Source of the DNA: a virus
Strand: one strand, 5' to 3'
Virus record (IMG/VR): IMGVR_UViG_3300047480_000697
Span: 1 to 22,541 of that record
DNA: 22,541 bases
Made by a program: the position numbers and the translations under genes. Position 1 is the first letter of the stretch. Every line of letters starts with the position of its first letter. The notes below the pieces were generated by a model. It was not told where the DNA came from, searched no databases, and saw nothing but the letters and a program-made list of their open reading frames with translations. This document shows positions 5,636 through 20,144 of the stretch, piece after piece.

Positions 5636-6541
5636 TTAAAAGAATTTCTTCATTTCTTCAGATGAATACCATTCTTTATTACTAGTACTATTATACGAAA
5701 AATTATTAGTATTATTATCGTTAATCAATATGTAGTATTTCCCATAATCTTTTACCGTGCCAAGTTCAAAACTTGACAAGATATCTTCACTCAATTTTTC
5801 CCCTGCCCTAAGACCAACTATTTCTATCATTGACTCATCAACAAGTGATCTAGCTATTTCATAAATATTTGCACTCTTCATTTTAGGAACAAATATTTCT
5901 GCTCCAGACATGTTGTCCATGAAAGAAACAGACCATTCTGCAGCCTTATCAGATCCTATAAAAAACCTAGTCATACCCTTATGTGTTACTGGTATTTTTT
6001 CATTATTTTCCTTTAAAATCTTCCATTTTTTAAATATAGAGCCATTGCTTCCAATAAGATTTCCAAATCTAACTACAGAAAACTTAGTATTTGATAAGCC
6101 ATTTGAAAGTATCACATTTTTCTCAGAAAGTAATTTGCTTACGCCATATATGCTAGTTGGAAGACAGGCTTTATCAGTTGATACAAACAATACCTTTTTT
6201 ACACCATTTTGAATTGCAGCATTTATAACATTATTTGTTCCTAAAACATTTACCTTTATTGTTTCATCTGGACTTTTTTCAGCTAGATCTATATGCTTCA
6301 TTGCAGCAGTATGAAAAACAAAATCAATTCCTTTCACAATATTGAACAATGAGTCATAGTTTTTTATATCTCCAATAACATACCTAACTCTTGGATCATT
6401 TATTTCCATTGAAGATTCAAACTGTCTTGTTTCATTTCTTGAAAACATAACTATTTCTTCTGTATCTAAATTTAGCAAAAGTTTTTTACATATTTCTTTT
6501 CCTAAAGACCCAGATCCACCAGTTATTAAATATTTATACAT
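5636..6541 (-). CDS. UDP-sugar 4,6-dehydratase (CapD/FnlA/PseB-like SDR)
   Basis: 301 residues. An extended short-chain dehydrogenase: the NAD(P)-binding motif TGGSGSLG at residues 7-14, then FSRNET and FESSM typical of the FlaA1/CapD group, AAMKHIDLAEKSP near residue 85, STDKACLP with the active-site region near residue 121, and the YGVSK Tyr/Lys pair near residue 132. These enzymes convert UDP-GlcNAc to a 4-keto-6-deoxy sugar, the first step to rare surface sugars. The start overlaps the upstream glycosyltransferase by 8 nt. It is the last gene of the ftsZ-sugar operon. Whether it keeps or inverts C5 cannot be read from sequence. Confidence 0.88.
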   Translation of the reverse strand: MYKYLITGGSGSLGKEICKKLLLNLDTEEIVMFSRNETRQFESSMEINDPRVRYVIGDIKNYDSLFNIVKGIDFVFHTAAMKHIDLAEKSPDETIKVNVLGTNNVINAAIQNGVKKVLFVSTDKACLPTSIYGVSKLLSEKNVILSNGLSNTKFSVVRFGNLIGSNGSIFKKWKILKENNEKIPVTHKGMTRFFIGSDKAAEWSVSFMDNMSGAEIFVPKMKSANIYEIARSLVDESMIEIVGLRAGEKLSEDILSSFELGTVKDYGKYYILINDNNTNNFSYNSTSNKEWYSSEEMKKFF

Positions 6542-7298
6542 TTCTTTTTGGAATCTTTCTATTTTCTACTGCAACTAATTGTCCCATATGATTTGCTCTT
6601 ACATCTTTTCTTACCCATGTTTGACCATACCCTAATCTTACCGCATGGTATTGAAAAGCTGGATCATCGCTAAGATTTAAAAGGGAATTATGAGACCATG
6701 GCAGATCATAAAATGCTGGTGAATTTACTAATAGCATCCCAGCAGTATTCCAGTGCTCTTCAATTCTTGGATCTTTATTTATAACATCACCCTTTAGCCC
6801 ATATGCTGGTACATCAACACTTACAATAGGATGATCAATCTCAAATAATTTTTCAACGGTAACCACATCAACAAACATATCTGAATCTACATAAAGTATT
6901 GCATCATAATTTACAACTCCATAATTTTGTTCTGTACAGTCTTCTCCCCAATGATGACCTGACATCTTCCTATGTCTTTGTGCAAATTCTCTAATAAGAT
7001 TTCTTCCAGTTTCAATTCTAATCCATCTATTTCCAGAAGTTACCACATCTTCCATGTCATTTATTGTATATGTCCAATAGTCGCCATTTACTTCTTTTAA
7101 AGCATCTATTACTTCAGAAAATACTTCAATTCCACGATTATCTAATTCAAAAGATGCAAAGAACTTAGCATTTGGAAATTTGTCTAGCACGACATTTCTA
7201 CTTTGTATCCAAGCCATGTGCTCTTTTCTGTCAACCTTCCATCCAACTAATGGAGTACCAATAACAAAATGTTTATTATAATCAACTTCTTTAAACAT
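6534..7298 (-). CDS. GT-A-type glycosyltransferase
   Basis: 254 residues without signal or membrane segments. The YVDSDMF motif near residue 136 fits a DxD metal/nucleotide-sugar site in a GT-A fold. It is preceded by an N-terminal beta strand (FVIGTPLVGW) and followed by an acceptor-type half with HWNTAGMLLVN and FQYHAVRLGYG. It probably moves a sugar from a nucleotide donor to a glycan or protein. It overlaps the FkbM methyltransferase by 1 nt and the dehydratase by 8 nt, so it is coupled to both. The exact donor and acceptor are unknown. Confidence 0.7.
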   Translation of the reverse strand: MFKEVDYNKHFVIGTPLVGWKVDRKEHMAWIQSRNVVLDKFPNAKFFASFELDNRGIEVFSEVIDALKEVNGDYWTYTINDMEDVVTSGNRWIRIETGRNLIREFAQRHRKMSGHHWGEDCTEQNYGVVNYDAILYVDSDMFVDVVTVEKLFEIDHPIVSVDVPAYGLKGDVINKDPRIEEHWNTAGMLLVNSPAFYDLPWSHNSLLNLSDDPAFQYHAVRLGYGQTWVRKDVRANHMGQLVAVENRKIPKRNV

Positions 7299-7999
7299 TA
7301 CAACCTTCTACTAATTAATTCATTAAATACTTCTTGGGAAATAAACCACGAATCATGTCTTGATTTATTTTCAAGAATATGAATGTACCCTTTTTCCTTT
7401 AATAAATTTTCAATTGGCATTTTATTTTCTGTATGATTATGCTCTACAGCTATTAGCCCAAAAGATCTTGAGAAATCATAAGCATTTAATATTTTAAACT
7501 CAGAGCCTTCTGTATCTATTGATAGAAATTCAATATATTGTGGAGCATTATTATTATCTAATAAGTCTTTTAATGATATTGTTTTAACATCATAAGTTTC
7601 ACCATTATTTTTTCTTACCCCTGACCAAGAATCTTTAAACGCATCACTTTGCATACCTGAAACACATTGAAAATCTCTAACTGCTAAAAATTTTACAATT
7701 TCATTACTCTTATCTGACACACACACATCATCAACAATAATACAGTTTCTCTTATCTTTTAATACTCTATTGTAGTATGGAACTGGTTCTACAAGAATTC
7801 CATTCCATCCATGGTAGGTCTCTAATAAAAATGTATTAGACATAATTATTCCATCACATGCACCAAACTCTACAAAGTATCCTGGGTTTTTATTGAAGCA
7901 AAATAAAGCTAGTACATCTTGCCCAAGTTGTGAATATGTTTCTGTAGTTGTTGCAAACTTTTCAAATAACTTAGTTATCTTATCTAATTCTTTTTGCAT
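7298..7999 (-). CDS. FkbM-family methyltransferase
   Basis: 233 residues. Starts with a helical segment, then SQLGQD near residue 22, the SAM-binding region FVEFGACDG near residues 42-50, LVEPVP near residue 71, and the diagnostic FLSIDTEGSEFKIL motif near residue 163 with VEHNHTE after it. FkbM enzymes O-methylate sugars in polysaccharides, glycolipids and antibiotics. Here it could cap a phage-directed glycan. One-base overlaps with both neighbours show tight coupling. Confidence 0.9.
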   Translation of the reverse strand: MQKELDKITKLFEKFATTTETYSQLGQDVLALFCFNKNPGYFVEFGACDGIIMSNTFLLETYHGWNGILVEPVPYYNRVLKDKRNCIIVDDVCVSDKSNEIVKFLAVRDFQCVSGMQSDAFKDSWSGVRKNNGETYDVKTISLKDLLDNNNAPQYIEFLSIDTEGSEFKILNAYDFSRSFGLIAVEHNHTENKMPIENLLKEKGYIHILENKSRHDSWFISQEVFNELISRRL

Positions 8000-8664
8000 T
8001 ATATGTCCAAACTATTTAGCAAGTTCTTATAATTAATCATTGATCCAACATCAAAATATTCTCCATAAACTCTAAATGCATAGTGATCATTAAAATTATC
8101 TTTGATACTATTCATTAGTGATATTCCAGGATGTGCATCTTCAGGACTCATGTTATATAAAATTTCTGAACTCATACCTAAAGCTCCCCACATGTGTTCA
8201 TAGTTGCAATTAGGCTGTTTATCTTGTATATCTATTATAGAATTATTTACAAATTCAACCTGTCCAACTTTACCTTTTAAAACTGGATTTACTTCCCAAC
8301 ATGCTACTGATATTGAATATTTTATTAAAGATTCAGACAAAACTTCATAGGGATTTTCACCTTTAAAATATGTGTCAGCCATTCCAATTAAATAAGATTC
8401 AGATGGGTGTGTTGATGCCATCTTTAATACAGCATCATTCATCGTAGAAGGTTCAACAATTATTAATTCTGCATCTAGATCAAAAGATTCAACTAGGTCT
8501 TTCCATTTTTTAGATGTACAAACTAAAACTTTATCGGTATATGGCAACATTTGATTTACTTGTCTTTTAATTAATGGAGTGCTGTCAGAGTCACAGGGCA
8601 AAGAAAATTTAGGCAAACCATTAAACCTAGTTGCTTTTCCAGAAGCTGGAATTAATCCAATCAT
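7999..8664 (-). CDS. Sugar-phosphate nucleotidyltransferase-like protein
   Basis: 221 residues. The N-terminus LIPASGKATRFNGLPKFSLP is a variant of the G-x-G-T/A-R...P-K signature of NTP-transferases (RmlA/GlmU N-terminal fold). GMADTYF near residue 125 holds the metal-binding Asp, and MWGALGMSSE, YGEYFDVGSMINYKNL fit the sugar-binding and closing parts. It should join a sugar-1-phosphate to UTP, dTTP or CTP. It lacks the C-terminal beta-helix. It overlaps the upstream glycosyltransferase by 4 nt. The substrate is not predictable. Confidence 0.8.
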   Translation of the reverse strand: MIGLIPASGKATRFNGLPKFSLPCDSDSTPLIKRQVNQMLPYTDKVLVCTSKKWKDLVESFDLDAELIIVEPSTMNDAVLKMASTHPSESYLIGMADTYFKGENPYEVLSESLIKYSISVACWEVNPVLKGKVGQVEFVNNSIIDIQDKQPNCNYEHMWGALGMSSEILYNMSPEDAHPGISLMNSIKDNFNDHYAFRVYGEYFDVGSMINYKNLLNSLDI

Positions 8665-9332
8665 CTCTTAACGTTCCATTTTTCCTTTAATAACTTAACA
8701 TCATCTGTTCTTGAGTCCATCATCCAGGAAAATTCTTCCGTTGAACTAGTTCCCTGCATATCACTTTGCATTGCACACTTATGAACTCTAAACTGTTTAT
8801 ATCCATTTTTTGTAGCATTTTGAGCAATATCATCATCAAGACCCCAATATGTAAATCTTTCATCAACAAGCATATCTTTAAATAATTTTGATTTTATCAT
8901 AAAACAATCTCCACGCATACCATGGTCTCCATAGGTTCCTTTTGTTTCTTGCGGAGCACTATTAGATATTTTTGGTGCAGGATATGTAATTGCAATTTTT
9001 TCATTTGAAGCTAAAACTTCTGCCAATTCTTTTCCAACATTTCCAAATATATCAATATCATCATTTGAAATAATTAAATATGCATCAATTTTTTCAGCGT
9101 CTAAGATAGATTTATTCCATTGTTGTGCAAGAGTTAGACCTCTAGTATCCACATACTTGGTTCTTTCTCTAAAAGAACATTCTCTTTCAAGTATTTCTCT
9201 ATCTTCATCTTTATGACCATTATCATATATCCATACTTCATCTATTGATAAATCTATTAGATATTTGTCAAGTAGGCTTATTGTTCTATAAGGTTCAATA
9301 ATTGTTGTTATTGCAACTATAATCTTATTCAC
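8661..9332 (-). CDS. GT-A glycosyltransferase (GT2-like)
   Basis: 223 residues, GTG start overlapping the end of ftsZ by 8 nt. A beta-alpha opening ([22 protein letters not shown]), VWIYDNG near residue 33, the [10 protein letters not shown] stretch and a DxD-type site SNDDIDIFG near residue 90 mark a GT-A glycosyltransferase; [13 protein letters not shown] and [11 protein letters not shown] near residue 165 fit the acceptor/catalytic acid part. No transmembrane helix is seen, so it would act at the cytoplasmic face. The overlap with ftsZ means its translation depends on ribosomes finishing FtsZ. Confidence 0.75.
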
Positions 9333-10260
9333 TTGTAAATCCTGTCGCTACAACAGTTACTAAAATTCCTTCTTCAAGATCTTCATCTAGTACTGTTCCA
9401 AATATTATATCAGCATCTTCATGTGCTTTATCTGAAACCAATGAGGCAATTGCATTAACTTCCTGCATCTTTATTTGTCCAGATGACGCTATTGATATTA
9501 GTACACCAGTAGCACCATTTAAATCTACATCAAGAATTGGACTTGTAATTGCCTGTGTACCTGCAGCATACGCACGATCTTCTCCATCAGCATATCCAAT
9601 TCCCATAAATGCAGATCCAGCATCTTTCATGACTCTTTTAATGTCTGCAAAGTCAATATTAATTTGACCAGGTGTGGTAATTAAATCTGATATACCTGCA
9701 ACTGCTTTTAATAGAACATTATCAGCTTCTTTAAAGGCATCTTCCATTGATATGTCTGGATCAAGCATTTGAACTAAATTTTCATTTGGAATAACAATTA
9801 ACGTATCCACTTCTTTTTTAAAGTTTTCAATACCTTCAAGAGCATTATTCATTCTTTTCTTACCCTCAAAACCAAATGGGGTGGTTACTACACCAACTGT
9901 CAATGCACCAGATTTTTTAGCACAATTAGCAACAATTGGAGCTGATCCAGTTCCAGTTCCACCACCCATACCTGCGGTAACAAATACTACATCTGCACCC
10001 TGAATTACTTCGGTTATTTCATGGGCACTATCTTTAGCGGCAAGTCTTCCAACATTTGGATCTGCACCTGCACCAAGACCCTTTGTTCTTTCTTTTCCAA
10101 TGTCAATCTTAACATCAGCTAAACTTGGTAGTAATGCTTGTGCATCTGTATTGATAGCAATAAATTCAACTCCTGATAATCCTTGATTTATCATACTATT
10201 TACGGCGTTAGTGCCACCGCCACCACAGCCAACTACTTTAATGTCAACAAAATTACTCAT
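9325..10260 (-). CDS. ftsZ: FtsZ, bacterial type, lacking the C-terminal linker and tail peptide
   Basis: 311 residues. The GTPase half has [12 protein letters not shown] (residues 9-20), NTDAQAL (37-43), the tubulin signature [12 protein letters not shown] (97-108), and [10 protein letters not shown] (127-136). The T7 synergy loop [11 protein letters not shown] (201-211) keeps both acidic residues, and the second domain runs through IIFGTV to VTVVATGF. All parts needed to bind and hydrolyse GTP and to polymerise are intact. It ends straight after this core: the variable linker and the terminal peptide that binds FtsA, SepF or ZipA are missing (cellular actinobacterial FtsZ is roughly 380-480). 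It has its own leaderless promoter and heads the sugar operon. It could poison, shift or sustain the host division ring. Confidence 0.95.
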
Positions 10261-10266
10261 TTATCA

Positions 10267-10272
10267 ATTATA
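10267..10272 (-). promoter_or_regulatory. Leaderless promoter (-10) of ftsZ
   Basis: Minus strand TATAAT, then TGATAA, then ATG: the box ends 6 nt before the start codon and no Shine-Dalgarno is present. It overlaps the 3' end of the 63-aa gene. No consensus -35 at 16-18 nt is visible. Confidence 0.6.
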
Positions 10273-10274
10273 CC

Positions 10275-10466
10275 TTAGTGAGACTCAAGTCTGGTATCAA
10301 TGTTATCTTCAAAAATTTTAAACACTACCATACAAGGATCTCCACCTTCTTCCCATTCTTGTGCCTCTTCATCAGACATAAAAGGGTCTCCTACATGTGT
10401 ATTACAGAATGGGTCAGAAATCCAACCCTTTTCAATACCATAATCACGCCATTCAAAGAAATCCAT
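10275..10466 (-). CDS. Unknown acidic protein, 63 aa
   Basis: 63 residues, strongly acidic (17 Asp/Glu), starting MDFFEWRDYGIEKGW. It holds two Cys, in SDPFCNTHVGDPF and GGDPCMVVF, and a DEEAQEWEEGG stretch. No family is recognised. The ATG overlaps the stop of the 47-aa gene (TAATG). It is the last gene before ftsZ and the two are 14 nt apart, but ftsZ seems to have its own promoter. Low isoelectric point and small size would fit a phage protein that binds or mimics a host factor, though nothing proves it. Confidence 0.7.
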   Translation of the reverse strand: MDFFEWRDYGIEKGWISDPFCNTHVGDPFMSDEEAQEWEEGGDPCMVVFKIFEDNIDTRLESH

Positions 10467-10609
10467 TACTTACTTACCTCTTCTGTATATTTTTTCCACA
10501 TGTTATTTGTTTCTTCAATTTTTGCTAAAGCTTCTACTACTGTTAAATCTAGTAGTTCTTCTTTATCTAAACCAATTTTTTCTGCGTATCTTAATACCTT
10601 TTGAATCAT
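10466..10609 (-). CDS. Unknown small helical protein, 47 aa
   Basis: 47 residues, predicted by eye to be mostly helical (residues 1-20 and 23-45), Glu/Lys/Leu-rich, with no Cys. It starts at an ATG that overlaps the previous stop (ATGA) and ends in a TAATG overlap with the 63-aa gene. The coupling on both sides is the main support that it is a real gene. No family recognised. Confidence 0.65.
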   Translation of the reverse strand: MIQKVLRYAEKIGLDKEELLDLTVVEALAKIEETNNMWKKYTEEVSK

Positions 10610-10779
10610 TTTCTCATCTCCATAATTATATATTCAATTGCGTGGTCAATAGTTGCACCATTTTCTTTAAGCCATTTTAATTTATTTAAAACAGAACCCA
10701 GAGTTGCTTTTCTTGTAAACTCAGAACTGTTTTGTAATTCTTTTACTTGCTCTTTATAGTAATGATAATCTTCTGACAT
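10606..10779 (-). CDS. Unknown small protein, 57 aa
   Basis: 57 residues with a Tyr/His-rich start (MSEDYHYYKEQVKEL), two amphipathic helices and RKATLGSVLNKLKWLKENGAT in the middle. No known family. The ATG overlaps the stop of the proteasome-like gene (TAATG), and its own TGA overlaps the next ATG. The order hydrolase, 57 aa, 47 aa, 63 aa is coupled throughout, so these could be adaptors or partners of the hydrolase; this is inference from position only. Confidence 0.65.
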   Translation of the reverse strand: MSEDYHYYKEQVKELQNSSEFTRKATLGSVLNKLKWLKENGATIDHAIEYIIMEMRK

Positions 10780-11342
10780 TACCCCACCAAATAGTCAAAT
10801 GGCTTATTTACTGATACTGCATATTTGGAAGCTGCCTCTAAAGCTAAGGTAAGTCTTTCTTTTGGAGAAATGTCAAAGTCTTTTGTAGTGTATAGCGATC
10901 CAAGAGCAAACTTGCTACCAGATCCAAGTGCCATATAATCTTCATACCACTCTAGTGCTTGTACATGTGACTGAACTTCAAAAAGTCTTCCATTTATGCC
11001 AACAATTAGATCAGCAACGTCATTATCAGACTCACTACCATCTGGCTCTTTAGATACTTCAATGACTAATTTATTTCTTTCAGCACACTCCATTAGTGCA
11101 GAAACAAACTCTTTATTCATATACTTATCAAGATTGTCTAAATCTGGGTTTGGTAGTTCAAGGTCATACTGAAAAACTTTTCCAGCTCTGACGCTTCCAC
11201 AATAGGCAAATAAAAATGGTCCATTCTTAAATATTTTTGGACTTTTCATTGGTATTGCAAGATCTACAGTAGTATCCGATAGTAAGCTGTCTGAACCAAA
11301 ATATAGTTTTCCATTTTCTTTAATTGCAACTATACAAGTCAT
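10779..11342 (-). CDS. Proteasome beta/HslV-like Ntn-hydrolase
   Basis: 187 residues. After Met removal the protein would start with Thr (MTCIVAI), the nucleophile of proteasome-type peptidases. Asp17 of the mature form is present in GSDS, and a conserved Lys follows in SPKIFK. FAYCGSVRAG fills the place of the FAG/AGS substrate-pocket strand, and ALGSGSKFALGSLY near residue 137 matches the Gly-Ser-Gly block of HslV and beta subunits. It has no propeptide, like HslV and unlike most actinobacterial PrcB. It may assemble into a ring protease or interfere with the host one. It is coupled to a 30-residue zinc finger upstream (TAATG). Confidence 0.85.
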   Translation of the reverse strand: MTCIVAIKENGKLYFGSDSLLSDTTVDLAIPMKSPKIFKNGPFLFAYCGSVRAGKVFQYDLELPNPDLDNLDKYMNKEFVSALMECAERNKLVIEVSKEPDGSESDNDVADLIVGINGRLFEVQSHVQALEWYEDYMALGSGSKFALGSLYTTKDFDISPKERLTLALEAASKYAVSVNKPFDYLVG

Positions 11343-11434
11343 TACTTTTCTCCATGGTTTTCTCTAATATGTGCTATTAAATCTAAAATATCTTCAAAAG
11401 AAGATTCACATTGATAACATTCATGCATGTCCAT
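11342..11434 (-). CDS. Minimal C2H2 zinc-finger protein, 30 aa
   Basis: 30 residues starting MDMHECYQCE. The pattern is Cys-x2-Cys-x12-His-x4-His, with Phe and Leu at the classical core positions (CYQCESSF...DLIAHIRENH). This is the textbook single C2H2 finger filling nearly the whole protein. It has an AAGG site upstream, starts 2 nt after the endonuclease VII stop, and its stop overlaps the start of the proteasome-like gene (TAATG). The finger could bind DNA, or a protein such as the hydrolase it is coupled to. It is too short for automatic gene calling. Confidence 0.65.
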   Translation of the reverse strand: MDMHECYQCESSFEDILDLIAHIRENHGEK

Positions 11435-11981: not shown

Positions 11982-12461
11982 CTATTTATTATGACTGACC
12001 CAAAAATATGTGCATTTGTTTGGGCAGCATACATAGTCATTAAAATATTCTGCCTCTTTTTTATATTGTGGATATAGTTCTGGTGCTTTTTCATAAAGTC
12101 TTCCTCTATGAGTAGTCATTACTTTTATCCATCTATAATCATTCATCCAATCAGGATTTTTATTCTTATCTTGATTAGAAAAGTTTCTTTTATAAGTATC
12201 TTTAATAACATTCCAGTTATTTTCCCACTTATACCCTCTTAAATCCATTTCATTTCTAATAGCTTTAAGATAGTTGTACAGAGATGCTTCATATCCAGCA
12301 AACATTTTTACTGCAGGATGATTTCTCCAAGCACCACCTGGAGATTCATTTGCAAGTATGCTCATAATCTGACGACCCTCTAGTAATTGTTTTACTAAAC
12401 GTTTCTGATCAAGAACTTTTGCACAATCAGCAAAGCTGTTCTCTGGTAAAAATACTTGCAC
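11982..12461 (-). CDS. Pyrimidine-dimer DNA glycosylase-like protein
   Basis: 159 residues, GTG start overlapping the region of the FmdB stop. The opening MQVFLPENSFADCAKVLDQKRLVKQLLEG and GGAWRNHPAVKMFAGYE near residue 41-58 are the hallmarks of the Pyr_excise family (T4 endonuclease V-like; cyclobutane-dimer glycosylase/AP lyase) as found in actinobacteria. The rest is helical, with TTHRGRLYEKAPELYPQY near residue 117. It would start base-excision repair of UV damage in the phage or host genome. It is not a bare copy of T4 DenV, so activity is inferred. Confidence 0.8.
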   Translation of the reverse strand: MQVFLPENSFADCAKVLDQKRLVKQLLEGRQIMSILANESPGGAWRNHPAVKMFAGYEASLYNYLKAIRNEMDLRGYKWENNWNVIKDTYKRNFSNQDKNKNPDWMNDYRWIKVMTTHRGRLYEKAPELYPQYKKEAEYFNDYVCCPNKCTYFWVSHNK

Positions 12462-13142: not shown

Positions 13143-13397
13143 CTATATCTTTCTGTCATCATTATATTTAACATCTAGAATTGGATCAAGTGCAACCTGT
13201 GCACCCAACATTTCTAGTCTGCTTTTTACTGCATTCATATACTTTATGCAACGCAGTCTTTCTGGATCACTCAAGTGTCTCCAGTGGCTTTCATAAAATT
13301 GTATAGTCAAAAATTGCCCATAATCTGCTATACCTATTTCAAAATCTTTTGGTGGTTTTATGTCTCTAACAGCTTTTCTCATTTGCTCTGTATACAT
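13143..13397 (-). CDS. Unknown protein, 84 aa
   Basis: 84 residues with an N-terminal helix, a beta-rich middle (DFEIGIADYGQFLTIQFYESHW) and a helical end (CIKYMNAVKSRLEMLG) followed by LDPILDVKYNDDRKI. No family is recognised. Its ATG lies directly at the stop of the whiB-like gene and it precedes ssb by 12 nt, so it is part of the same operon. Soluble, cytoplasmic by composition. Confidence 0.75.
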   Translation of the reverse strand: MYTEQMRKAVRDIKPPKDFEIGIADYGQFLTIQFYESHWRHLSDPERLRCIKYMNAVKSRLEMLGAQVALDPILDVKYNDDRKI

Positions 13398-13678
13398 TAG
13401 TTTTTCTCCATAGTTGCACTAGACCAAATATCAAACCAGTCCTCTTTACTTTTATGTGTATTAAATTCTTTTGATATTTTTCCATCTTGCAAATAAACTC
13501 CACCCCAAACTCCCCACTCAGCATTACTTACACCATGTGCTAGGCAATCTCTTTGTACTGGACATCTTACGCATAATAAATCTATCTTTTTTGCGACATT
13601 ATGATCTTCTTCATATCTATCAAAAAATAGATTAAAATCCATATCTTTGCATATTGCCTTATCCTTAAAGTTACGCAC
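13397..13678 (-). CDS. WhiB-family Fe-S transcription regulator
   Basis: 93 residues, GTG start with AGG just upstream. Cys10, then Cys36-x2-Cys39-x5-Cys45 give the four [4Fe-4S] ligands, and GVWGGVYLQDGK at residues 57-68 is the signature turn of WhiB proteins. WhiB proteins bind the principal sigma factor and, with a basic tail, DNA. Here the basic tail (HKSKEDWFDIW) is weak, so it may act mainly through the sigma factor, as described for phage WhiB of mycobacteriophage TM4, which blocks host WhiB2 and septation. It overlaps the upstream 72-aa gene by 8 nt. Confidence 0.92.
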   Translation of the reverse strand: MRNFKDKAICKDMDFNLFFDRYEEDHNVAKKIDLLCVRCPVQRDCLAHGVSNAEWGVWGGVYLQDGKISKEFNTHKSKEDWFDIWSSATMEKN

Positions 13679-15961: not shown

Positions 15962-16327
15962 CTATTGTACACTATTTTTCTCATCGTAAAGGGATAAAAT
16001 GCTTTCTAAAAATAGCCTTTCTTCCTCTTTAAAAGTAGATATATTTTCTCTAACATATTTAAACTGTTCTGGAGTTAGACCAACCACTGTTTGCCCTTGA
16101 GTAAATATGACATCAATTATATCTCTCATCCATAAATCTTGGGCAACCTCATTTACCATTTCATAGTGTGCATAATATAATTCTGGATAAAACTCTTTAC
16201 ATTTATCAGTTATTTTATATGTAAAAGTATCTGCAATTGAATCATATCCAAGTATTTCTAGTGCCCCAATCTCAAGTAGGTGCTCTATAACTTCTGTCAA
16301 TTCTTCATCAAACTGTTCTTCAGACAT
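15962..16327 (-). CDS. Unknown acidic protein, 121 aa
   Basis: 121 residues, strongly acidic and helical. The first 40 residues (FDEELTEVIEHLLEIGALEILGYD) look like a winged-helix or helical bundle start. LTPEQFKYVRENISTF near residue 80 and the end ERLFLESILSLYDEK are helical. No Cys-rich or catalytic motif is visible. Its ATG overlaps the end of the IMPDH/GMPR gene by 8 nt. It might be a partner of its neighbours; function unknown. Confidence 0.75.
   Translation of the reverse strand: MSEEQFDEELTEVIEHLLEIGALEILGYDSIADTFTYKITDKCKEFYPELYYAHYEMVNEVAQDLWMRDIIDVIFTQGQTVVGLTPEQFKYVRENISTFKEEERLFLESILSLYDEKNSVQ
15964..15969 (-). promoter_or_regulatory. Leaderless promoter (-10) of the head-type gene
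   Basis: Minus strand TG-TACAAT, then AGTCCT, then ATG. It sits inside the last codons of the 121-aa gene. No Shine-Dalgarno precedes the ATG. Confidence 0.5.
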
Positions 16328-17342
16328 GCGGCATTGACTCCTTAATTGTTAGTGTTGATACTTTAATATACATTGCATTTGTATATAGATCTTTTAATTT
16401 TGATACTCCGCTATAAGAACATCCACTTCCAATACCGCCACGAATATCTTTAATTATGTCATAAACGCTTCCTTTGTATGAAATCTTTGTTGATATACCC
16501 TCTGCAACAGCAATATCTTTACCTTGATTTGCTTCTGCACTTGCCATTCCTCTAAAAATTTTATACTTACCAGAATTATCTTGATATATTTCTCCAGGAG
16601 ACTCGTCTGTACCTGCAAGTATTGATCCAAGCATAACAGCATCTGCACCTCCAGCAAAAGCTTTTACCATATCTCCACTATTTTTAATCCCACCATCAGC
16701 AATAATTCCAACATTAATATCGTTTCTATCTTTTGCTTCTTTTACATCCATGATTGAAGTTAGTGTTGGAATTCCATGACCAGAAACCAATCTTGTTGTG
16801 CAAACACTGCCACCACCAATTCCAACACGAACTGAATCTGCACCAGCTTTTGCTAACTTTTTATATCCCTCACCAGTTGAAACATTTCCAACCATAACAT
16901 GAACCGATTCTTTTGCAAGTCTTCTTAATTTTTTAGTTGCCTCAATAGCATATTCACTGTGACCATTAGCTGTATCAATTAATATAAGTGATGCACCAAC
17001 AGATATTAATTTTAATACATTATATTCAAAATCTCCCTTTACGCCAATGGCAGCACCAACCGCAAATCCTCTTGATGCTACTTTAGAAACTTCTAATATT
17101 TGTTTTTCAATGGGCATAAATCTATGAATAATTCCAATAGCACCATTTTTTGCCATAGCAACTGCCATTTCACTTTCACACACAGTATCCATTGGTGATG
17201 CAATTATTGGGGTATTTAAAAATGATTTATTGCCAATATTCATAGATAGGTCAACATTACGTCTACTATTTATATCTGAATGTTGTGGAACCATTAAAAT
17301 ATCATCAAAGGATATTGCTTTTTTATCACTATATTTTTTCAT
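16320..17342 (-). CDS. IMP dehydrogenase/GMP reductase family enzyme without CBS domains
   Basis: 340 residues, a single TIM-barrel. SFDDILMVP (11-19), ASPMDTV (49-55), [17 protein letters not shown] with the catalytic Cys181, IADGGIK (214-220), [10 protein letters not shown] (231-240), FRGMAS (263-268) and [24 protein letters not shown] (289-312) are all present. The CBS pair that regulates cellular IMP dehydrogenases is missing, so it should be constitutive. The flap ([11 protein letters not shown]) lacks the catalytic Arg of the usual GRVPYKG form, and the ending resembles GMP reductase, so either IMP to XMP or GMP to IMP is possible. It adjoins the RmlB-like gene directly. Confidence 0.9.
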
Positions 17343-18362: not shown

Positions 18363-20144
18363 CTATAATAAGTTGAAATTAGCTAGATATTCTTCAACAT
18401 CGCCATTTATTTCAGGCTTTGATTTTACCAGTTCTCTATCTATTTTGTCAACTTTTGAACGAGTTTCATAGGTATGAACTTCAACTTCCTGAATTTTTTC
18501 TCTTCTTGTATGACTAATAGCATTATAAACAGAGCCACACATAGCATCTGCCAAGTCCTTAGATTTTTTACGAGGGTGGTCTACCTTATTATTATTCATA
18601 ATTCTAAGTTCTTGCATTTCTTCAAGTAATAAATCTATCTGTGGAAGAATCACTCTTTCTTCATAAATAAGCATTGACAAATCTTCATAATGTTTTTTAG
18701 CTACTGAAAGGGTTTCTGTTTTAATTCCAACACTACTTAGTTCTTTTTGAATATCAAATGAATTCCAGCGGTCAAATGTCACTAAGCCTAAATTAAATCC
18801 TTTACGTTTTAAATCAATAATCCAGTTTTTTACTTCTGATAAATCTACTGGACCTTCACGTCTTGGCTCCCAATAAACAATTGCATCTACAACAACAATT
18901 GGTGCAATTTGATCATAACCAGCAAATGATTGTACGTTTACCCATTTATCAACATGTGCAATTGATACAGCACACTTATCATGTTTTTGTGCAAGGTCAG
19001 CATGTACATAATAGGTAGTATCTGGATCAATAATAAAAGATTCTTCAAGTCTTTTAACTGCATCTATTGGGTTTGTTTTCTTAAATGCTGCCTCAAGTTT
19101 ATCCCTATTTTTAAAGAAAGCATCAGAAACTATAGTTGGTGTACAGGCAAAACGCATCATTGAATCTGCCATATCATTAAAGAAAGATAGTTTAAAATCT
19201 TCAATACTTCTTGTTGGATTAATCTCCCATGTAGGTCTTTTTAATGCAATTACACCAGGGTATTTATAAGAAACAATGGTGTCTTCTTCCCATTCAATAG
19301 AAAATTTATTATTTGGATCATCTTCTGACATTGTTGGATTAATAATAAAATCATGAGTTCTTACAATAGTTTCTTTTTCTGCAATTACATCATCATACCT
19401 TTGAGAAATAAAGTCACCCTTGAAACGAGGAAATGAAAGCAATACTACCTTGCCAAAGTCTGGAAAGCGTGAGTCAACGGATCCACGAAATGCTTTATAA
19501 ATATTGTCAGCAGTTTTAGCTTGATCATTTCCAGATGTTGTCTCCATTGCAAATCCAGAAATCTCATCAAGAATTGCAAGAATTAAGTTTAAACCTTCTG
19601 CAGATTCTCTTTCTGAGTGACCTGAATAAACAGTAATAGATTTATCAAACTCAAAACTTTCCGCTTTTGGATTATATTTACCTGCGAACCACGGAGAGCC
19701 CTCAATACGGTTTCTAAAGCCTTTGAAGAATACGTTTTTAGCCTGTTGAGCATTAATAGCAACATTCATAATATCAATAGCATCATTACTAGGCTTTCCA
19801 AAATATCTGGAAGGATCTTTTAAACATAATAATTTATATACCAAATAAGCACAGCCAATTGTTGAGGTATAGTCTTTTCCACTACCCTTGCCAAGCTGCA
19901 TTATTACTTCACTTTTTGTATATTTTTTATAGTGTTCTCTACCCTCTTCTTTTCCCATAATTCTAACAAGGTCTTCTTCTTTATAAATTTGGCTAAGACA
20001 TTCAACAAGTGTATATTGATATTCAGAAAGGTTTGGTTGATTCAGGTACTGTTCACCCATAACAAAAGTTTTTACATCAACTGGAGTTTCTGCGAATGGA
20101 TTCTCGTCAAGAGCCTCCATAAAATCGCTAATATCAATTGTCAA
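18363..20144 (-). CDS. terL: Terminase large subunit
   Basis: 593 residues. The ATPase part has a Walker A GKGSGKD (85-91), Walker B ILAILDE (188-194) and the coupling SFPRF near residue 237. The nuclease part has HADLAQKHDKCAVS with Asp383, FDRWNSFD with Asp458, and the closing KSKDLADAM with Asp533, giving an RNase H-type metal site. This motor and cutter packages the genome into the prohead. It overlaps the TerS end by 11 nt. Length is typical. It is the most secure phage marker in the window and a good basis for placing the phage in a group. Confidence 0.95.
   Translation of the reverse strand: MTIDISDFMEALDENPFAETPVDVKTFVMGEQYLNQPNLSEYQYTLVECLSQIYKEEDLVRIMGKEEGREHYKKYTKSEVIMQLGKGSGKDYTSTIGCAYLVYKLLCLKDPSRYFGKPSNDAIDIMNVAINAQQAKNVFFKGFRNRIEGSPWFAGKYNPKAESFEFDKSITVYSGHSERESAEGLNLILAILDEISGFAMETTSGNDQAKTADNIYKAFRGSVDSRFPDFGKVVLLSFPRFKGDFISQRYDDVIAEKETIVRTHDFIINPTMSEDDPNNKFSIEWEEDTIVSYKYPGVIALKRPTWEINPTRSIEDFKLSFFNDMADSMMRFACTPTIVSDAFFKNRDKLEAAFKKTNPIDAVKRLEESFIIDPDTTYYVHADLAQKHDKCAVSIAHVDKWVNVQSFAGYDQIAPIVVVDAIVYWEPRREGPVDLSEVKNWIIDLKRKGFNLGLVTFDRWNSFDIQKELSSVGIKTETLSVAKKHYEDLSMLIYEERVILPQIDLLLEEMQELRIMNNNKVDHPRKKSKDLADAMCGSVYNAISHTRREKIQEVEVHTYETRSKVDKIDRELVKSKPEINGDVEEYLANFNLL

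Follow-up and report, generated by a model that had tools for sequence, protein, structure and literature searches.

Genes and features of the locus

The window, by which is meant the whole stretch of DNA analysed, is a 22,541-base IMG/VR contig with a G+C content of 33.6%. It carries a gene for a proteasome-like Ntn-hydrolase, preceded by a gene for a small zinc finger (ZF30) and followed by three genes of 57, 47 and 63 residues. The features referred to below all lie on the minus strand.

10275-10466, minus strand: 63-residue gene, relatives of which follow the hydrolase at about 2-3 kb in the wider lineage
10466-10609, minus strand: gene of 47 residues that is conserved in relatives, where it lies upstream of FtsZ
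10606-10779, minus strand: 57-residue slot gene directly after the hydrolase, which it also follows in contig L314
10779-11342, minus strand: proteasome-like (HslV/BPH/AAH type) Ntn-hydrolase of 187 aa, assigned by PHROG 1040, PDB profile, AlphaFold2 model and Foldseek/VIA
10917-10925, minus strand: Gly-Ser-Gly block, residues 140-142 (G140 in 118, G142 in 117 and S141 in 88 of 118 homologs, the last being otherwise Cys or Ala)
11013-11075, minus strand: pore-loop equivalent, residues 90-110, with six acidic and two basic residues, between H2 (68-89) and the strand 111-116
11235-11237, minus strand: codon of the Lys33 equivalent (residue 36; Lys in 117 of 118 homologs)
11289-11291, minus strand: codon of the Asp17 equivalent (residue 18; Asp in 117 of 118)
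11337-11339, minus strand: codon of the catalytic Thr1 (residue 2; Thr in 117 of 118, Ser in one)
11342-11434, minus strand: 30-residue C2H2 zinc-finger gene ZF30 (CxxC-x12-HxxxxH), overlapping the hydrolase gene at TAATG
13397-13678, minus strand: WhiB-like gene, an actinobacterial marker (PF02467, E 5.7e-13), followed on this strand by the hydrolase at a distance of about 2 kb
18363-20144, minus strand: large terminase, 55% identical over 100% of its length to those of Streptomyces phages and near the Stanwilliamsviridae-type Streptomyces phages

Matches to the terminase include the Streptomyces phages Karimac, Gilson and IchabodCrane. On the terminase and whiB together, the phage is probably an actinophage, infecting actinobacteria. 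Published work on actinophages with whiB (PMC6802176), together with the low G+C content, leads us to infer a freshwater habitat for these phages.

The hydrolase gene and its family

The 187-aa product of ORF 10779-11342 (minus strand) opens MTCIVAIKENGKLYFGSDS, with a Met-Thr-Cys N-terminus. Its open frame comprises 194 codons and holds no other start codon between the upstream stop and the annotated start, which leaves no space for a propeptide and makes the threonine residue 2. The hydrolase stop overlaps the start of the next gene in the same manner as the finger stop overlaps the hydrolase start.

The product was matched by PHROG 1040 ('peptidase HslV family', E 1.6e-19), and relatives were located in 153 phage records using tblastn. 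From these matches, and from 118 aligned homologs in which the site residues are kept, the ORF is judged not to be a chance one. The score against Pfam PF00227 is 18.2 bits, below the gathering cut-off of 22.4, so routine annotation may miss the gene; its membership of the PF00227 family follows from PHROG 1040 together with the profile match to BPH and the fold. The single sequence matched solved structures weakly, and a profile of eight homologs searched against the PDB gave BPH (5ovs) at E 1.2e-8 and HslV at E 1.6e-4. Scores against the NCBIfam models for HslV (TIGR03692; 13.4 bits, equivalog cut-off 157.75) and for the actinobacterial 20S PrcB (TIGR03690; 14.5 bits, cut-off 191.9) are both below the cut-off, and a propeptide is absent.

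The AlphaFold2 model has a pLDDT of 91.2 and a pTM of 0.86. Helices H1-H4 are present in its secondary structure and the C-terminal S12/H5 is absent; loop 90-110 has a lower pLDDT (69-71). BPH is the best match in both Foldseek and VIA-align (Z 20.2, rmsd 2.7 Å over 169 residues), followed by HslV, and all 1000 re-aligned chains gave Z of at least 8 against the model, the four-layer fold of which matches proteasome-family structures. The hydrolase is assigned to the HslV/BPH/AAH-like "group I" proteasome homologs, a kind known from bacteria and other phages. Within that group AAH is the most likely subfamily, provisionally, on size, helices and bacterial kin. An identity with PPH was rejected, the hydrolase having 187 aa against about 140 aa in PPH and possessing an H2 (residues 68-89), which PPH does not have.

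The initial annotation had described a phage proteasome/HslV-like hydrolase with Thr right after Met, Asp17 and a Gly-Ser-Gly block, and hence with no propeptide to be cleaved. PHROG 1040, the BPH profile match and the AlphaFold2 fold bear out the first part of that description; T2, D18, residues 140-142 and the single possible start bear out the second.

Conservation of the active site and selection

Loss of the active-site residues on alignment had been named, along with failure to oligomerise, as an outcome that would speak against the initial annotation. These residues are kept: Thr or Ser at position 1 in 118 of 118 aligned homologs, Asp17 and Lys33 in 117 each, and Gly140 in all 118. The figure for Thr1 is partly ascertained, one search pattern having begun MTCI; Asp17 and Lys33 lay outside the patterns. 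The equivalent of the oxyanion Gly47 is G49 in the window by sequence alignment, and Asp, Thr or Ser in most homologs.

The median dN/dS was 0.043 and the maximum 0.14 over 1258 pairs of the main lineage, values taken from relatives and not from the window copy, with synonymous sites near saturation in many pairs. Strong purifying selection on the hydrolase in the actinophage lineage is thereby shown. A single-sequence scan returned no close homolog of the window hydrolase, and a scan using the three sequences nearest to it returned none closer than about 43%.

Distribution, synteny and phylogeny

A scan of IMG/VR using a five-sequence profile placed relatives of the hydrolase at 569 places at least. 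For the 80 loci kept out of these, a WhiB-like gene was counted by eye within the fetched flank in 77. Among 17 records of this kind tested whole, WhiB was above cut-off in 15, and the terminase was 53-60% identical to that of the window in 14. For the most part, the hydrolase of this wider lineage follows WhiB at a distance of 1-2.5 kb, with both genes on one strand (2.0 kb in the window). The sequences thus recovered indicate that the hydrolase is widespread and well conserved in this actinophage lineage.

Relatives nearer to the window were collected by way of its FtsZ, which is 78-89% identical in 43 viral contigs with a common block o72-WhiB-o84-SSB-FmdB-...-S57-S47-FtsZ. All four of the FtsZ-found contigs longer than 50 kb carry a hydrolase homolog, but there it is encoded on the other strand and sits beyond both FtsZ (by about 5-10 kb) and thioredoxin. 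In the relatives at least 1.8 kb separate this copy from thioredoxin, and the window has 1.3 kb of sequence beyond that gene. Contigs chosen by TerL had the homolog in 5 of 32 cases, most of the 32 being fragments that do not span the loci. Four TerL-chosen contigs longer than 50 kb have it (101.7, 94.2, 72.9 and 56.2 kb) and it was not detected in three others (80.7, 73.5 and 61.1 kb), so some phages of the window's own group may lack the hydrolase.

L314, from the terminase-based sample, is the only other phage found with the hydrolase in the window's slot (10243-10785, against 10779-11342 in the window), where it again lies downstream of WhiB. TerL is 82%, PDG 80% and SSB 79% identical between the two, the hydrolase just 40%. 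A common slot, combined with a divergence of the hydrolase that far exceeds that of the genes next to it, fits replacement as well as fast evolution.

In bacterial genomes, homologs were found at four Streptomyces, two alphaproteobacterial and two myxococcal or deltaproteobacterial loci. A clear homolog was present in 12 of 296 genomes of the genus Streptomyces, with one further marginal case, and in 1 of 396 genomes of a phylum-wide sample. The actinophage hydrolases grouped together in the tree (21 rows, 92/94), the window lying within a 16-row subset (95/96), and the Streptomyces/alphaproteobacterial set (86/95) stood apart from them. An earlier tree with fewer rows had paired the window hydrolase with L020 at 94/87. 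Branches are long, and we are unsure of the window's exact position.

The zinc finger and the small neighbouring genes

The ZF30 stop overlaps the hydrolase start (TAATG), as had been described, and GGAG lies at 11353-11350 on the minus strand. The best Pfam match of the finger, at E 5e-4, is below cut-off. Its pattern ECYxCExxxxDILDLIxHIRxxH is kept in 20 of 43 FtsZ loci, which marks ZF30 as a genuine small C2H2 gene. In none of those 20 does the hydrolase stand beside the finger, and in L314 three small genes separate the two. The proposal that hydrolase and finger are coupled does not agree with this arrangement.

The three tiny downstream proteins fare no better as the adaptors they had been suggested to be: the 57- and 47-residue genes are retained in most relatives that lack the hydrolase in that slot, and the 63-residue gene is a distant slot gene elsewhere. 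Finger coupling and tiny adaptors were rejected on the synteny of the FtsZ-linked relatives and L314. In the explanation preferred here, the finger and the tiny genes would be neighbours in a variable cargo slot and not parts of a machine.

The wider lineage has other neighbours. A CxxC...CxxC protein is encoded about 600 bases upstream of the hydrolase in 23 of 23 representatives. Downstream, a zinc-ribbon protein is present in at least 21 of the 23, usually directly after the hydrolase; in L023-L093 it lies at about +570 from the hydrolase start, often with an N-terminal membrane segment by eye. Both are absent from the window. Judged by its position, the zinc-ribbon protein is a candidate partner and a better lead than the window finger. 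In 19 of 23 representatives the hydrolase is also closely followed by a gene for a secreted subtilisin-like protease, which in L024, L029 and L082 lies at about +1.1 kb.

Other genes of the window

The FtsZ gene (9325-10260, minus strand; 311 aa) is bona fide, scoring 399 bits against the TIGR00065 cut-off of 295. As a clue to the host it was uninformative (best identity 64%). The phage protein ends after the FtsZ_C domain and so seems to lack the linker and the C-terminal tail, the bacterial open frames having about 350-620 codons. It is possibly a filament or division blocker; no paper on a phage FtsZ was found in the literature.

The remaining minus-strand genes include an IMP dehydrogenase/GMP reductase-like gene (16320-17342; TIGR01302 E 3.7e-88, below cut-off) adjoining an SDR epimerase-like gene, a cluster of sugar-nucleotide and glycosyltransferase-like genes (5636-9332) that varies between relatives, and a pyrimidine dimer DNA glycosylase-like gene (11982-12461; PF03013 E 1.3e-20).

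Comparison with known systems

AAH, CPH and PPH were named as group-I proteasome homologs in phages by Fuchs, Alva and Lupas in 2021, and their survey did not come upon AAH in any Actinobacteria-specific phage (PMC8665760). Like AAH, which is also phage-borne, the window hydrolase is a compact group-I subunit of the 180-residue type without a propeptide, and the bacterial kin found here (Streptomyces, Hyphomicrobiales and Nitratireductor) match the AAH name and distribution. The actinophage copies differ in forming a branch of their own, apart from the Streptomyces/alphaproteobacterial group.

The betaproteobacterial proteasome homolog BPH (5ovs, 5ovt and 5ovu; PMC5777263) shares the fold, the T-x15-D site, an acidic pore loop and the lack of an unfoldase. 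Its loop between H2 and the next strand is long and highly acidic (PMC5777263); across the homologs of the window hydrolase, the loop has a median of 15 residues and a net charge of -3. Identity to BPH is just 16-19%, however, the carriers differ, and BPH is a 14-mer whereas the window protein is known from sequence and model. Epoxomicin binds to solved BPH, yet none of the model substrates was cut (PMC5777263), so the activity of the hydrolase, expected in the initial annotation, is not to be taken for granted.

HslV (ClpQ) has the same fold (Z 19-20), the same Thr1, Asp17 and Lys33, and gives its name to the PHROG; the hydrolase differs from it in occurring without HslU in 17 long related contigs and in having a longer acidic loop in place of the short linker of HslV. 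The other PHROG 1040 proteins (of T5-like phages, Vibrio phages, Geobacillus virus E3 and Moorella phage MTATph1) share the MTC(I/V) start and the same residues at 26-37% identity, but their hosts and neighbours differ and some (L009, L012) have C-terminal extensions.

Proposed function and alternatives

The explanation that we regard as probable, with some reserve, is that the hydrolase is a group-I homolog of probably freshwater actinophages which forms by itself a BPH-like, unfoldase-independent double ring, with the finger and tiny genes as mere neighbours. Methionine aminopeptidase removes the initiator Met where the second residue is small, and the host enzyme would thus expose Thr1. The subunit would then assemble into a homo-oligomeric double ring, seven-fold symmetry as in BPH being likelier than six-fold. 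The acidic pore loop (residues 90-110) may substitute for a regulatory cap, and the chamber would cut unfolded or loosely structured proteins or peptides during infection without a dedicated ATPase. Its substrates might be host or defence proteins, or damaged proteins, which is a guess.

No ATPase or alpha subunit had been seen in the window by the initial annotation, and inspection of its ORFs here likewise shows no apparent alpha subunit or ATPase of the HslU/Clp type. A search of 17 long related contigs for an HslU/Clp-type unfoldase gave no PF07724 and no PF00004 above cut-off, the AAA (PF00004) search yielding just two sub-cut-off fragments. Self-assembly appears the most plausible of the modes of action proposed at the outset, the nearest solved fold, BPH, being a 14-mer without a known unfoldase.

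AAA+ partners are used by HslV and its 20S relatives, and as the phages encode no unfoldase of the tested type, such a partner could come from the host alone. Delivery of substrates by the host's ClpX, ClpC or Mpa is still conceivable. That it works with such an unfoldase (ClpX, ClpC or Mpa/ARC), redirecting host degradation to targets of the phage's choosing, is nevertheless unlikely: the phages that carry homologs have very different hosts, BPH has no known unfoldase and, according to the paper, pull-downs with it yielded no partner (PMC5777263), and no co-occurring AAA+ partner was observed in Fuchs 2021 (PMC8665760). Table 1 of that survey leaves Actinobacteria unmarked for HslV, which makes HslU an unlikely partner there (PMC8665760). 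About equally improbable is a specialised peptidase or ligase that processes a single substrate, e.g. a virion or regulatory protein of the phage, in place of a degradative chamber. Connectase, a monomeric ligase, shows that a proteasome-like fold can become a ligase (PMC8665760), BPH does not cut general substrates (PMC5777263), and the hydrolase diverges fast against its surroundings in L314. Yet the predicted hydrolase has H1 and H2, both absent in connectase, and shows no S3/S4 insertion; DNA/repair and accessory genes surround it, and phages differ in where they carry it.

A single functional module of finger, hydrolase and three tiny proteins is very unlikely on the synteny given above. 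Overlapping start and stop codons do run through the cassette, and L314 likewise has the 57-residue gene after the hydrolase, but overlapping starts are common throughout the packed operons of this phage. Least probable of all is that the hydrolase replaces or joins the host PrcB ring, forming hybrids with host PrcA, as had been suggested. Some bacteria, Actinobacteria among them, have a 20S proteasome, and four Streptomyces genomes with a hydrolase homolog also have PrcA/PrcB-type genes. Against this, the hydrolase lacks a propeptide and the C-terminal H5 and is much closer to BPH and HslV than to PrcB, and its kin occur in phages of Salmonella, Vibrio and Geobacillus, hosts not known to have PrcA. 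A PrcA/PrcB-kind gene was present in just 5 of the 34 small actinobacterial genomes tested.

The self-assembled, unfoldase-independent chamber is the reading retained as most likely. It is also conceivable, at a low probability, that in the large lineage the unfoldase-free barrel standing downstream of whiB strips or remodels the host proteome or defences; the zinc-ribbon protein could then be an adaptor.

Significance

The protein kind itself was already known; what is new is the wide and conserved presence of a proteasome homolog in actinophages. The 2021 survey that named these homologs had no functional context for them (PMC8665760), and no paper on proteasome homologs in freshwater actinophages was found. 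A tempting zinc-finger adaptor story is removed. Hundreds of phage contigs with actinobacterial markers carry a strongly selected homolog at a fixed place near whiB. They offer a setting that opens an orphan proteasome homolog to functional tests: a lytic infection, no ATPase of the tested type of its own, and few candidate neighbours.
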